DNA of 34,591 bases, taken from contig JAUHYE010000025.1 in NCBI GenBank assembly GCA_030426395.1, forward strand, positions 1-34,591. The letters run 5' to 3'. Under the pieces are notes generated by a model, which was not told the origin of the DNA, ran no database searches, and saw only the letters and a program-made list of their open reading frames with translations. How positions within the stretch are numbered: the first letter of the stretch is position 1; the number at the start of each line of letters is the position of its first letter. A program made the position numbers and the translations under genes. This DNA is from Phycisphaerae bacterium (GTDB lineage: Bacteria > Planctomycetota > Phycisphaerae > Phycisphaerales > UBA1924). Positions 1,414-27,990 of this stretch are shown in pieces.

Positions 1414-1748
1414 CTGCGCACGGTGCGTAAGGCGCACCTTACGGACCCGAAGGCGCTGCGCACGGCCCGCAAGGCGCGCCTTTCGGCCCCCAAGGCACTG
1501 CGCACGGTCTGTAAGGCGCGCCGATCGGACCCGAGGACGCTGCGCATGGTCCGCCAGGCGCGTCCCATGGCCTCGAAGGCGCTGCGCACGGCCCATCAGG
1601 CGCGCCCGATGGCCCGCAGGACGCTGCGCACGCTCCGGGGTGCGCGCCCCCCGGAGCGAGGTGCGCGCCCCCGGCCCGAGGTGCGCGCCCCCCAAGCCGG
1701 CGTACGCTGCGCGCGGTCCGTGGGTGCCGCCTGCACCCCCACCTCTTG
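1414..1748. repeat. 21-bp periodic degenerate tandem array 1 (about 15 units)
   Basis: Unit starts fall at 1414, 1435, 1456, 1477, 1498, 1519, 1540, 1561, 1582, 1603, 1624 and 1645, all exactly 21 bp apart; one 20-bp unit starts at 1666, then 1686 and 1707. Odd units begin CTGCGCAC and even units CGCC, giving a 42-bp higher-order repeat. Unit positions 9-13 are mostly GGNCC, and most units end in AGGCG. Junctions between odd and even units are near-palindromic, for example AAGGCGCGCCTT around 1471-1482. Because 21 is a multiple of 3, the array is open in several frames on both strands (a 7- or 14-residue repeat), so ORFs here are probably artefacts. It lies between two plus-strand genes. Confidence 0.9.
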
Positions 1749-10314: not shown

Positions 10315-10328
10315 AGGGGGTACGAGTG

Positions 10329-10806
10329 GTGCGGCCGGACGGTCGCGGGCGCGTAGAGCAATCTTCGCACTCGAGGAAAGTCCGAGCACGGCAGGGCAAC
10401 GGTGGTGGGTAACGCCCACCCGTCGGAACTCGACCCCCACGGGTTCGCTCTTGGGGGATTCAGGTCGCGAGCCGGCGAGGGACAGTGCCACAGAAAACAC
10501 ACCGCCGATGGCCCGTGCTTGCACGGGATCAGGTAAGGTTGAAATGGTGCGGTAAGAGCGCACCGCCCGAGTGGCGACACCCGGGGCACGGCAAACCCCA
10601 CCGCGTGCAAGGTCACGCAGCCGTCGCGATGGTGCGCACGAGAGTGAACGCCATCGACGCCCGGCCCGGGCGGCAGGCGGCGGGTAGACCGCTGAGGCGC
10701 AAGCCTCGATCACGCCGGCAACGGCGTGGCCAGAGAAATGGCCGTCATCTGCCTTGGAGGGCCGTTCGCGCCAGGGCAGAGACAGAACTCGGCTTACAGG
10801 CCGCAC
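10329..10806 (+). ncRNA. rnpB: RNase P RNA, bacterial class A
   Basis: About 478 nt. The ends pair perfectly: GTGCGGCC at 10329-10336 with GGCCGCAC at 10799-10806 (helix P1). Conserved core blocks appear in order: GAGGAAAGTCCG (10373-10384), GGTAACGCC-like and GTGCCACAGAAAAC segments, GGTAAGGTTGAAATGGTGCG, GTAAGAGCGCACCG, GGTAGACCGCTG, CCAGAGAAATGGCCGTC and AGACAGAACTCGGCTTACAG near the 3' end. This RNA is the catalytic part of RNase P, which matures tRNA 5' ends. It is somewhat longer than the typical 350-420 nt, with the extra length in GC-rich helices. The 3' end and terminator are duplicated 822 bp downstream. Confidence 0.96.
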
Positions 10807-10849
10807 GCGACCACATGACGGCCCCGGGGGAGACCTCGGGGCCGTCGCC
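10799..10849 (+). repeat. rnpB-tail direct repeat, copy A
   Basis: 51 bp covering the last 8 nt of rnpB, a 10-nt linker and the terminator hairpin. It matches 11621-11671 at 50 of 51 positions; the only difference is C at 10824 versus G at 11646. Confidence 0.93.
10817..10846 (+). terminator. rnpB: rnpB terminator hairpin
   Basis: GACGGCCCCG (10817-10826) pairs perfectly with CGGGGCCGTC (10837-10846) around a 10-nt loop, 10 nt after the mature RNA end. There is no T-run behind it. The position and strength support a terminator or processing stop. Confidence 0.65.
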
Positions 10850-12247: not shown

Positions 12248-12285
12248 GGGCCTCCGATCCGCCTTCGCCCGCCACCACGGGCCGC
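12248..12285 (+). repeat. 38-bp intergenic repeat R, copy 2
   Basis: 35 of 38 positions match 11589-11626. Its last seven bases (GGGCCGC) are also the start of the first unit of 21-bp array 2. Confidence 0.85.
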
Positions 12286-12488
12286 CCGCCCACCCCGCCG
12301 GGGCGAACGCCCGCCCGAACGGGCCGCTCGCCCCGTCCAATGGACCGCGTGCCCCGCTCGACGGGACGCGTGCCCCGTTGAACGGGACACGCGGTCGCAT
12401 GCCCGGGGCGTTCGCCCGGGCGGGGTTGGCGGGGGAAACCAGCACGGGGCACGCGGTCCGGCCGTCTGGGCGGGGGCGTGTGCGGGGC
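12279..12488. repeat. 21-bp periodic degenerate tandem array 2 (6 clear, up to 10 units)
   Basis: Unit starts fall at 12279, 12300, 12321, 12342, 12363, 12384, 12405, 12426, 12447 and 12468, all 21 bp apart. Most units begin GGG and have CCC or CCCC centred about 10 bp later, forming imperfect dyads such as GGGCGAACGCCC (12301-12312), GGGCGTTCGCCC (12406-12417) and GGGACGCGTGCCC (12363-12375). Units 12300-12383 are the best; later ones decay. The array is open in several frames as a 7-residue repeat but looks non-coding. It ends about 40 bp before the kmo -10-like hexamer. Confidence 0.82.
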
Positions 12489-16691: not shown

Positions 16692-16766
16692 GGCGAGGTA
16701 GCTCAGCTGGTCTAGAGCGCTGGATTCATAACCCGGAGGTCGAGGGTTCGAGTCCCTCCCTCGCCA
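16692..16766 (+). tRNA. tRNA-Met (CAU anticodon)
   Basis: 75 nt cloverleaf. Acceptor GGCGAGG (16692-16698) pairs with CCTCGCC (16759-16765), discriminator A. D-stem GCTC/GAGC, anticodon loop TTCATAA, T-arm GAGGG-TTCGAGT-CCCTC. The CCA end is not encoded. The anticodon stem CTGGA/CCCGG has a G-U pair and an A-C mismatch at the loop-closing position. The initiator tRNA is excluded because the acceptor starts with a normal G-C pair and the stem lacks three consecutive G-C pairs. The CAU anticodon could also belong to tRNA-Ile2 (lysidine-modified), so the amino acid is not certain. Confidence 0.9.
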
Positions 16767-16787
16767 CTTTCGAGCGATTTCAAGCGA

Positions 16788-25480: not shown

Positions 25481-25527
25481 CGAACACCGCGAACCGGTCT
25501 GGGAACGCTCAATACACGGAGATGGTT

Positions 25528-26337
25528 ATGTCCACATTGCGCTGCCGGGGCGTTTCTTGCCCGCTCGCCGCACTCGGGATCATGTGCTTGCTCATGCCCG
25601 TGGGATGTGCGGCGACCGGGCAAGAGACTCAATCGCCCAAGGCAACCGCGGACGCCCAGACCGCGACGTGGCTCGACTGTGACGACCGGGAGCATCGGGA
25701 GGCGTTGCTGGCCCTCGTGCGCGAGCACGTGGCATCGCCGCCCTCGCTCGTCGCCCAGGACGATCTGCGGGCTTGTTTGGACGCGGTGCTGCGTTCGTTC
25801 TGCGGGAAATCATCCAAGCCCTTCCGCGATGGGCTGCTGGTTGCGCCGCGCACGCTGCACGCCGAGCCGTTCGTCGAGTTCCTGCGGACGGAAGTGCGGC
25901 CCGCGGTGCTGCCCGAATCGACCGCTGAGTTGTCGCCCCGAGAGGCCTTCTTCTATCTCCTGGACCATCCCGGGCACCGCAACATGACGCCCGTGCGGGT
26001 CGCGCGTTCGAGCATCACGGCCGGTCGCGGGCTGGCGCTCGAGCAACGCGAAGAATGGAACTCGACGAGCGTCTTCGCGCAGAAGAGCATGGTGCAAACG
26101 CCCAAGGGCGGCTTCTTGACGAGCGATCAAGTCGAGGGGCTCGATCATGGCTCGCAATCCTTCTGGCTCGACATGGTCGTCGAGTTCGCCGAGGGCTACC
26201 GGTCGCGCGTCAGGATCATCTTCTATTACAATACCGAACACGAACGCTGGTTCCCCACCGCGATGATCGTTGAAGACCCGATGATGTCCCTGAAGGACGA
26301 TCCGGCGATCATGCTGCGGCCCTGGCCGATGATCTGA
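25528..26337 (+). CDS. predicted lipoprotein, 269 aa
   Basis: ATG at 25528 with GGAG six bases upstream; an ATG two codons earlier is worse placed. The start is a signal peptide ending in a Pro-Val-Gly-Cys lipobox (Cys27). The body has CDDREHREALLALVREHV, a Cys-containing helix, then a beta-rich part with VRVARSSITAGRGLALEQREEWNS and a membrane-free end rich in Met and Trp. I do not recognise a family. It lies 47 bp after plsC, possibly on the same transcript. Downstream is a non-coding repeat array and a convergent permease gene. Confidence 0.75.
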   Translation: MSTLRCRGVSCPLAALGIMCLLMPVGCAATGQETQSPKATADAQTATWLDCDDREHREALLALVREHVASPPSLVAQDDLRACLDAVLRSFCGKSSKPFRDGLLVAPRTLHAEPFVEFLRTEVRPAVLPESTAELSPREAFFYLLDHPGHRNMTPVRVARSSITAGRGLALEQREEWNSTSVFAQKSMVQTPKGGFLTSDQVEGLDHGSQSFWLDMVVEFAEGYRSRVRIIFYYNTEHERWFPTAMIVEDPMMSLKDDPAIMLRPWPMI

Positions 26338-26404
26338 ACCCGATCGAGCCGGTTCGATCGGTTGTGTTTCCTCTTTCGAGCGCACACCCCATCGCCCACC
26401 ACCC
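26338..26404. other. intergenic lead-in to array 3
   Basis: No gene. The stretch 26391-26404 (TCGCCCACCACC core) resembles the TCGCCCGCCACC part of repeat R copy 2, which also lies directly before a 21-bp array. Confidence 0.3.
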
Positions 26405-26572
26405 GTCGACGTCCCCGGGCCCGCGGTCGACGCGCCCCGATACCCCGTCGACCCGCCGCCGCGGACGGTCGACGGCACCCGAACAATGGTCGACCATCGC
26501 GTGCGTGCGGTCGACCGGATGGCGCGAATGGTCGACCGGATGGAGCAAACGGTCGACCGTTGGGGCCCGATG
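26405..26572. repeat. 21-bp periodic array 3: eight GTCGAC palindromes
   Basis: GTCGAC starts at 26405, 26426, 26447, 26468, 26489, 26510, 26531 and 26552, each exactly 21 bp after the last. The 15 bp between them are largely unrelated. Some flanks extend the dyad: ATGGTCGACCAT at 26486-26497 and AACGGTCGACCGTT at 26548-26561 are perfect 12- and 14-bp palindromes. All frames stay open as 7-residue repeats, so ORFs here are artefacts. The array lies between convergent genes (a lipoprotein and a MacB-type permease), where a promoter function is less likely. Confidence 0.95.
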
Positions 26573-26661
26573 GGGTGTGCTGGCGGCCTCCGAGGGCCGT
26601 TTTCCCGAACAATGCGCAAATAGAAACGAACGCGGCCGCGCACCCGGCCGCAGGCCGCGCC
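26573..26661. other. intergenic region after array 3
   Basis: No gene. GC-rich inverted repeats of GCGGCC around 26630-26660 (GCGGCCGC, CGGCCGC, GGCCGCG) could terminate the minus-strand permease transcript, but no T-run follows. Confidence 0.3.
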
Positions 26662-27990
26662 CTAGTCGTGCCGCAGGGCCACGATGGGGTCCTGCCGGGC
26701 CGCCTTGCGGGCGGGGTACAGGCCGAAGATCAGCCCGGTCAGCACCGCCACGGTCATCGCGACGACCACCGACCACCAGGCCAGCTGCGTCGGCAGGCTC
26801 GCGTCGGCGGGGATGAACCGGCCCAGCACCGGCATGCTCGGCAGCAGCGGCACCGCCCAACCCAGCAGCAGGCTCAGCCCCACGCCGATGGCCACGCCGA
26901 TGAGCCCGCCGATGAGGCTCAGGACGCTGGTCTCGACCAGGAACTGCCAGACGATGTGCTTCCTCGTCGCACCGAGCGCCCGGCGGATGCCGATCTCCCG
27001 CGTGCGTTCGGTGACGGTCGCGAGCATGATGTTCATGATGCCGATGCCGCCCACCAGCAGGCTGATGCCCGCGATGGCCATGAGCATCAGCGTGCCGCGC
27101 AGGGCCGCCCGCTCGGCGTTCTCGAGCAACTCGAAGGGCACGACCATGGTCACGTCGGTCATGCCGTCGCGGCGGGTCTCGAGCACGCGCTGCAAGCGGC
27201 TGGCCAGCCCGAGCACCTGCTCACGCTCTGGCACCGTGAGGTACAGCTCGCTCACGTGCACCTCGGCCGCGTTGAACGAGCCCGATGTGCGGCGGAAGAC
27301 CGAGTCGCCGAAGACGTACCGGGCCGTCTCGATGGGCACGTGGATGTCCTGGTTGAGGTCCCGCCCCACGAGCGCCGAGCCCGCGCCGCCCGCCAGGCCG
27401 ACGGGCTCGAGCACGCCCACGATGCGCATGGCCTTCTCGTCGATGCGGATGGTGGCGCCCAGGGGGTCCTCGATCGGGAAGAACTGGCGGGCCACCTCCC
27501 AGCCGATCACGCACACCATCGCCCGCTCGGTGTTGTCGCCGTCGGTCAGGTAGCGGCCCCGGTTGATGCGGAGGTTGGCCACCTCGGCCAGCTGCGGGTC
27601 GACGCCGTAGGCCTGGCTGGTGCGCTTCATGGGCCCGCGGATGATCTCCGAGCCGATCTCCTTGAGGGCGACGATCCGCGCATCGTCCGAGAAGTTGTCC
27701 TCGATGATCCGCAGGTCGTTCCAGGTCAGCCCGTACTTGACCATGAACGACCGCTCCTGGCCCTGCTGCTGCTGGGCCTCGGGCGGCCGCTGGCTGCGGA
27801 TGATGATGTTGCGGGCGCCAAGCTGCTCGATCTGCCGCAGGGCCTCCTGTTTGCTCCCCTCGCCGATGGACACCATACAGATCACGGCCGCCACGCCCAA
27901 AATGATGCCCAGGGCCGTCAGAAAGCTGCGCAGCTTGTGCAGCCGGAGGTTGGCGATGCCCAGGCGGATGGTTTCGAGCAGGAATGCCAA
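26662..27990 (-). CDS. ABC transporter permease, MacB type
   Basis: 442 aa. The start is a TTG at 27990; an in-frame stop lies two codons upstream and no ATG is near. Classic MacB layout: N-terminal helix (SFLTALGIILGVAAVICMVSI, about 22-42), a 200-residue periplasmic domain, then three helices with TVTERTREIGIRRALGATRKHIVWQFL between the first two and GLYPARKAARQDPIVALRHD at the end. Such permeases couple ATP hydrolysis to mechanotransmission for efflux of peptides, lipoproteins or toxins with a TolC partner. No ATPase or adaptor gene adjoins it in the window, so partners must be elsewhere. It is divergent from the small gene at 28129. Confidence 0.9.
   Translation of the reverse strand: MAFLLETIRLGIANLRLHKLRSFLTALGIILGVAAVICMVSIGEGSKQEALRQIEQLGARNIIIRSQRPPEAQQQQGQERSFMVKYGLTWNDLRIIEDNFSDDARIVALKEIGSEIIRGPMKRTSQAYGVDPQLAEVANLRINRGRYLTDGDNTERAMVCVIGWEVARQFFPIEDPLGATIRIDEKAMRIVGVLEPVGLAGGAGSALVGRDLNQDIHVPIETARYVFGDSVFRRTSGSFNAAEVHVSELYLTVPEREQVLGLASRLQRVLETRRDGMTDVTMVVPFELLENAERAALRGTLMLMAIAGISLLVGGIGIMNIMLATVTERTREIGIRRALGATRKHIVWQFLVETSVLSLIGGLIGVAIGVGLSLLLGWAVPLLPSMPVLGRFIPADASLPTQLAWWSVVVAMTVAVLTGLIFGLYPARKAARQDPIVALRHD

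Follow-up and report, generated by a model that had tools for sequence, protein, structure and literature searches.

To our knowledge, operators, iterons, CRISPR repeats and antitoxin RNAs are recognized through their sequence or through a specific structure. The antitoxin repeats of type III toxin-antitoxin systems are about 35–48 nt long. In these systems (ToxIN and relatives), the tandem array is located upstream of a small protein gene (PMC8860590, PMC5772629). Intergenic tandem repeats of other kinds include the BrickBuilt MITE minisatellite of Porphyromonas gingivalis, a 23-nt array with 12-bp inverted-repeat ends that is present in about 19 copies per genome at sites found both empty and filled, with one repeat sequence common to all copies and no constant gene partner (PMC4596501). 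The TAACTGA and other heptamer repeats (STRRs) of Beggiatoaceae, Cyanobacteria and Bacteroidetes have a fixed 7-bp sequence and no common function of the downstream genes (PMC4679880), and the tandem repeats of Borgs, which are extrachromosomal archaeal elements, are not tied to one gene family (PMC9879509).

The DNA analyzed here, referred to as the window, is a stretch of 34,591 nucleotides from a Phycisphaerae bacterium of the order Phycisphaerales. Between two convergent genes ending at 26337 (+ strand) and 26662 (- strand), that is, in an intergenic region as an earlier note on this DNA had placed it, the palindrome GTCGAC is found at 26405, 26426, 26447, 26468, 26489, 26510, 26531 and 26552 with zero deviation in spacing, again as that note had described. 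Given how often GTCGAC occurs in the window (9.0e-4 per base), 1.4e-20 such eight-member chains would be expected by chance. Two dyads that had been said to extend to 12 and 14 bp indeed do so (ATGGTCGACCAT, 26486-26497, and AACGGTCGACCGTT, 26548-26561, respectively). The sites lie where that note had put them; its coordinates leave out a 13-nt inverted repeat that brackets the array and a hairpin that follows it. The features of the window are as follows.

26405..26557, no strand assigned: array of eight GTCGAC dyads with an exact 21-bp period (from motif positions and a chance estimate)
26382..26394, + strand: left arm of the 13-nt flanking inverted repeat, GCACACCCCATCG (from inverted-repeat finding)
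26568..26580, + strand: right arm of the 13-nt inverted repeat, CGATGGGGTGTGC, resembling the flank of the array on contig C29 (from inverted-repeat finding)
26580..26603, + strand: terminator-like hairpin and T-run after the array, CTGGCGGCCTCCGAGGGCCGTTTT (TTTT)
25481..26661, no strand assigned: own-lineage insertion of about 1.18 kb comprising an ORF and the array (from congener comparison)
25528..26337, + strand: rare lipoprotein-like ORF within the insertion, start codon uncertain
1414..1690, no strand assigned: second member of the class in the window, an orphan with a period of 42/21 and another sequence (CTGCGCACGGTCCGTAAGGCG...)
12266..12400, no strand assigned: third member of the class in the window, also an orphan, with a 21-bp period; its dyads include CCCGTTGAACGGG
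10327-10812 and 16692-16767: genes for RNase P class A RNA and for tRNA-Met

The acyltransferase and permease genes that flank the insertion are directly adjacent in four congeners (G002-G005), whereas about 1.18 kb with an ORF and the array lies between them here, and the permease gene (the - strand gene ending at 26662, whose product we take, from reading its sequence, to be a MacB/FtsX-type permease) is without an array in all six congeners checked. The window array is therefore a lineage-specific copy at a new place. It is also an orphan, gene-less member of the array class described below, the lipoprotein-like ORF in the same insertion being outside the protein family to which these arrays are linked. 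A sigma-70 scan near the array found no promoter, and an Rfam scan of the window matched only RNase P and one tRNA, with no CRISPR family.

Repeated GTCGAC-N15, the signature by which the earlier note had expected the element to be traced in the genome and its relatives, recurs in two more arrays of the same genome (contigs C29 and C68) and in the relatives G005, G006 and G014; the reversed control pattern gave zero arrays in these four genomes. The 15-bp spacers, said to be almost unrelated, do show only a weak likeness within the window array (mean identity 0.38, with 0.31 expected) but are not arbitrary, since they are matched in three other GTCGAC arrays: those of C40 (the window), C68, C29 and G006 share spacers that follow one order when counted from the 3′ end, with an identity of 0.53-0.67 for most pairs. 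The C29 and G006 arrays are orthologous, each being located directly upstream of the same gene (66% identity). A CRISPR array was considered and rejected, given the constant part of 6 bp, the recurrence of spacers in order at other loci and the lack of an Rfam CRISPR family.

The GTCGAC pattern also matched termite-gut Tannerella, Treponema and others. Matches in Actinobacteria, Halobacteria, Geomonas and others were left out, being regarded as coding repeats or as minisatellites unrelated to the class; the A3 protein family was absent from the 15 genomes tested among them. Possibly non-coding GTCGAC-N15 arrays are present in Amycolatopsis and Saccharomonospora (L044, L045, L047, L052, L063, L088 and L147) and share the spacer parts ACGCGTGAT and CCGCGA; the A3 family is missing in both of these genomes that were searched (L044, L088), and the arrays are perhaps a separate actinobacterial repeat.

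The class to which the window array belongs was surveyed in 676 kb from its own genome, G005 and G006, 77 kb of which are intergenic according to a home-made caller based simply on codon usage; the array thresholds are likewise our own. At the 0.60 threshold, intergenic self-similar arrays number 10 with period 21, 11 with period 42 and 6 with period 63, and at most one with any other period. Almost every locus has a repeat sequence of its own (e.g., GACGCCCGGCGTGCCGGATGC, ACCGCGTTCCACGGAGCAATG, CGACTGGAAGCTCTTCCCAGT). GTCGAC accordingly fails as a general motif, the cores of other arrays of the class being quite different, and for the same reason a single sequence-specific GTCGAC-binding protein serving the whole class was rejected. 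The wider proposal of the earlier note, that selection acts on the period and the dyad and not on the repeat sequence, is supported in that these are what is preserved, at the window locus and far beyond it. The arrays at 1414-1690 and 12266-12400 of the window are intergenic as well, differ in sequence and adjoin no family gene.

Right after the C29 array comes the gene for a 219-aa protein that has 58 homologues in its own genome and 2-39 in six congeners. Of the 40 homologues fetched (own genome and G004), at least 32 are preceded by a 21/42-bp array, and not one is followed by such an array. By a single fixed criterion, an array of period 21, 42 or 63 lies within 900 bp upstream of 33 of 41 family genes as opposed to 15 of 469 other genes (Fisher p = 9e-33); with the control periods 18, 20, 22, 24, 40 and 44, the count is 0-1 of the 41. 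In unbiased stretches, an array was found at three of six family genes, and fewer than half of the intergenic arrays adjoin a family gene, so orphan arrays like that of the window are common. The gene family is present in 24 of the 61 genomes of the taxonomic family, with upstream arrays in other genera too. Such an array typically makes up the first part of a two-part module, which runs from a 21-bp array through a leader, sometimes with a terminator-like hairpin, to the gene for a protein of about 220 aa; an Rfam scan of 16 module loci returned one tRNA and no other match.

Several of the termite-gut arrays adjoin a gene for a protein of about 230-246 aa. Although the termite genomes were found through GTCGAC arrays, loci were then selected for testing on the basis of the protein. 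This family is encoded in 10 of the 10 genomes reached through such loci, with 1-29 copies in each; a Bacteroidetes MAG and a distantly related member of Phycisphaerae are among them. Of 30 protein-chosen loci, 28 have an upstream tandem array (25 with period 21/42, two with period 22 and one with period 14/21/28), and none has a downstream array of that kind; further sets agree, among them three of four loci in Bacteroidales genomes that were not picked via arrays. Family members were also detected in a Dysgonamonadaceae MAG and in an Azoarcus termite MAG (G271). The latter, assigned to Pseudomonadota, contains eleven family matches (L342-L356, even numbers), and arrays lie upstream of most of those that are full-length; these copies could result from phylum-to-phylum transfer or from bin contamination. 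Modules were found in genomes of one Phycisphaerales family and of termite-gut Bacteroidota and Spirochaetota, with 1-58 of them per genome; the known spread of both protein families is based on about 575 searched genomes. One A3 member searched against phages and plasmids with tblastn gave no match.

The Phycisphaerales and termite-gut protein families are homologous as judged by profile comparison: hhalign aligns them over 133 columns, mainly in the N-terminal domain, with E 3.6e-7 and a probability of 93% when 13 sequences are used, an earlier comparison from 5 sequences having given 8%. AlphaFold2 models of both families (pLDDT 91) predict N-terminal helices and a C-terminal FN3 domain. 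No significant match to the module protein was found in Pfam, NCBIfam, PADLOC or PHROGs. With median pI values of 5.1 and 6.6 in the two families, the N-terminal domain is not basic, and it shows no recognizable DNA-binding fold; the protein has no nuclease fold either, its predicted helical and FN3 domains being unlike a ToxN-type endoribonuclease, and no signal peptide is seen by eye in its sequences.

Across about 150 upstream regions of family genes (a few loci being counted twice), the fundamental period is 21 bp in 109, 22 bp in 3, 20 bp in 1, another short period in 7 and none in 32; in a heptamer test, periods of 14 or 28 bp appeared at few loci only, the fundamental period being 21. 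The 22-bp arrays are at L315, L330 and L367 and the 20-bp array at L376; genome G249 has two 22-bp arrays and the 20-bp one beside many 21-bp arrays. At L164:352-520 (congener G006), 7/14-bp repeats of TTAGGGAT-like heptamers that resemble cyanobacterial STRRs adjoin a 21-bp array, and it is possible that the 21-bp unit originated as three heptamers. At L182:13518-13700, a 42-bp array is next to a perfect hairpin of about 22 bp (GGCGTGCCCTGCGGTCATGTTT / AAACATGACCGCAGGGCACGCC), which suggests an inverted duplication of the unit.

Within arrays the register is nearly invariant: neighboring units fit better when shifted in 4 of 586 pairs (mean identity 0.62) and in 1 of 300 pairs (mean identity 0.69), that is, in 5 of 886. 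Orthologous modules retain the array at the same place with the sequence partly or wholly replaced. The repeat sequence is not predicted by protein identity (Spearman 0.03 and 0.05), and because proteins that are 79-91% identical can carry arrays no more alike than random pairs, the period and a partial dyad symmetry persist while the sequence turns over. Recognition of the repeat by the neighboring protein via its sequence was rejected, protein and array similarity being uncorrelated.

These observations bear on two alternatives. Orphan copies, the 13-nt flanking inverted repeat and the location of the window copy in a lineage-specific insertion are all compatible with a passive minisatellite or a non-autonomous, BrickBuilt-like mobile repeat that descended with the modules, its period being inherited rather than selected. 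Such a repeat appears improbable in view of the 5 slips in 886 pairs at 62-69% neighbor identity, which would imply far fewer indels than neutral drift, of the persistence of arrays at orthologous sites as their sequence changes, and of the strictly upstream position relative to one gene family in unrelated phyla. The many paralogues with a tandem array before each could instead point to contingency loci, in which changes in repeat number would vary the expression of a multi-copy family. We consider such a switch quite improbable: many arrays are degenerate (mean neighbor identity 0.62), unlike fast-slipping repeats, a fixed 21-bp unit would be unnecessary, and the proteins lack a signal peptide visible by eye.

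Dyad symmetry exceeds column-shuffled controls in 46% of 69 Phycisphaerales arrays and in 18 of 26 others, and some arrays (e.g., L229) have no dyad beyond chance. Row-wise covariation at the dyad is positive with z of about 5, an optimistic value given that the same data had served to choose the centers, and G-U pairs are not favored over A-C at dyad pairs. Codon-position-specific conservation, which the earlier note had named as the sign of a translated region, is not seen: a third-position excess with p<=0.05 is present in 7% of arrays, and the median p is 0.57. The notion that the arrays encode a heptad-repeat peptide, 21 bp being 7 codons, can draw on the retention of at least one open frame in every array and on the genuine coding heptads among the genome-contig matches of the GTCGAC pattern, but it is rejected by the codon-position test, and with GTCGAC invariant at all codon positions and with units of 20 and 22 bp in existence, we give it almost no credence.

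The reading that we favor, albeit tentatively, is that the array works as DNA, with phased dyads that are occupied cooperatively and control the module gene. Dyads spaced by two helical turns would line up as a series of sites in phase; a protein dimer or oligomer would bind them cooperatively, reading spacing and symmetry more than sequence, and the bound array would control the promoter region of the module gene beside it. Concerted evolution would then replace the repeat sequence at a fixed unit length because only the period and the symmetry would matter. The window copy would be a derived array that reached a new place within an insertion of about 1.2 kb, its gene left behind; it could still serve as a sink or a boundary, or may be decaying. 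This model explains the 21-bp unit, the freedom of sequence, the dyads, the lack of a G-U preference and the orphan arrays, and dyad covariation without a preference for G-U over A-C is as expected for DNA rather than for one RNA strand. The earlier note had taken 21 bp as two turns that place all dyads on one helix face, as for a cooperative dimer; the 20- and 22-bp periods weaken the strict version, and phased dyads remain the interpretation of choice. Against the DNA model are the non-basic protein and the lack of dyads above controls in roughly half of the Phycisphaerales arrays.

Evidence that the arrays may be transcribed counts against it as well. A terminator-like hairpin on the gene-ward strand follows 19% of Phycisphaerales arrays compared with 3% in shuffles and is enriched on that strand only (19% vs 3-5%), hinting at transcription; a motif like the hairpin and T-run of the window array trails many module arrays. 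The array could instead be an RNA hairpin array: transcription would run toward the gene and stop at the terminator-like hairpin, and the RNA would bind the module protein or another RNA-binding protein, in the manner of a type III antitoxin, each unit of about 21 nt forming a hairpin with a stem of about 7 bp, a loop of 4-7 nt and a short linker. The order of repeat array, terminator and ORF, the strand bias of the hairpins, the folding of the window array, which beats shuffles (z -4.3), and the tolerance of 20-22-nt units agree with such an RNA, as do several termite arrays that are near-perfect hairpins with 4-5-nt loops (L324, L327, L333, L338). A terminator-like hairpin follows 0 of 7 testable termite arrays. 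Yet G-U is no commoner than A-C mismatches, although an RNA made from one strand should tolerate it; the symmetry often crosses the dyad center and leaves no loop (GTCGAC); arrays such as L229 lack a dyad beyond chance; and there is neither an Rfam match nor a nuclease fold in the protein. An RNA hairpin array is the main rival and seems somewhat less likely than phased DNA sites, which are retained as the preferred reading.

On balance, we lean toward a horizontally spread two-part system, undescribed in the sources searched and present in at least three phyla, that combines a dyad array of about 21 bp, in which unit length and symmetry would be selected, with a multi-copy partner protein of predicted helical and FN3 domains, the window holding an orphan array. 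It is unusual for a non-coding element to keep its repeat length in several phyla with a sequence that is free to vary. The close tie of the arrays to a protein family that the major family libraries lack, and that reaches 58 copies per genome, suggests a system overlooked by annotation, the array having the appearance of junk and the protein that of a hypothetical one. It opens the way to direct experiments. A description of the module was not found in open-licence papers, which were partially covered; the system is apparently new in the sense that it shows the defining features of no known kind and that no description was encountered in those sources.

Among known systems, the modules resemble the heptamer STRRs in being intergenic, often just before start codons, in a period of which 7 is a divisor and in a patchy distribution across phyla, and differ from them in a 21-bp unit, a variable sequence and the link to one gene family. 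With Borg repeats they share fast-evolving intergenic tandem arrays. BrickBuilt is similar in its intergenic tandem array and possibly in short inverted-repeat ends and in empty and filled sites: the window locus has the 13-nt inverted repeat and is empty in congeners, but the inserted DNA extends beyond the array, and a target duplication was not found; unlike BrickBuilt, the modules have their own sequence at each locus, a 21-bp period and one gene family. Type III toxin-antitoxin systems are alike in the tandem array upstream of a small protein gene, which holds for the family genes but not for the orphan window copy, as well as in the locus-specific repeats, the spread across phyla and possibly, at some loci, a terminator-like hairpin between the two. 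The modules are set apart from them by a shorter (20-22 bp), partly dyad-symmetric repeat, by up to 58 copies per genome and by a protein that is predicted to consist of helices and FN3 rather than to be an endoribonuclease.
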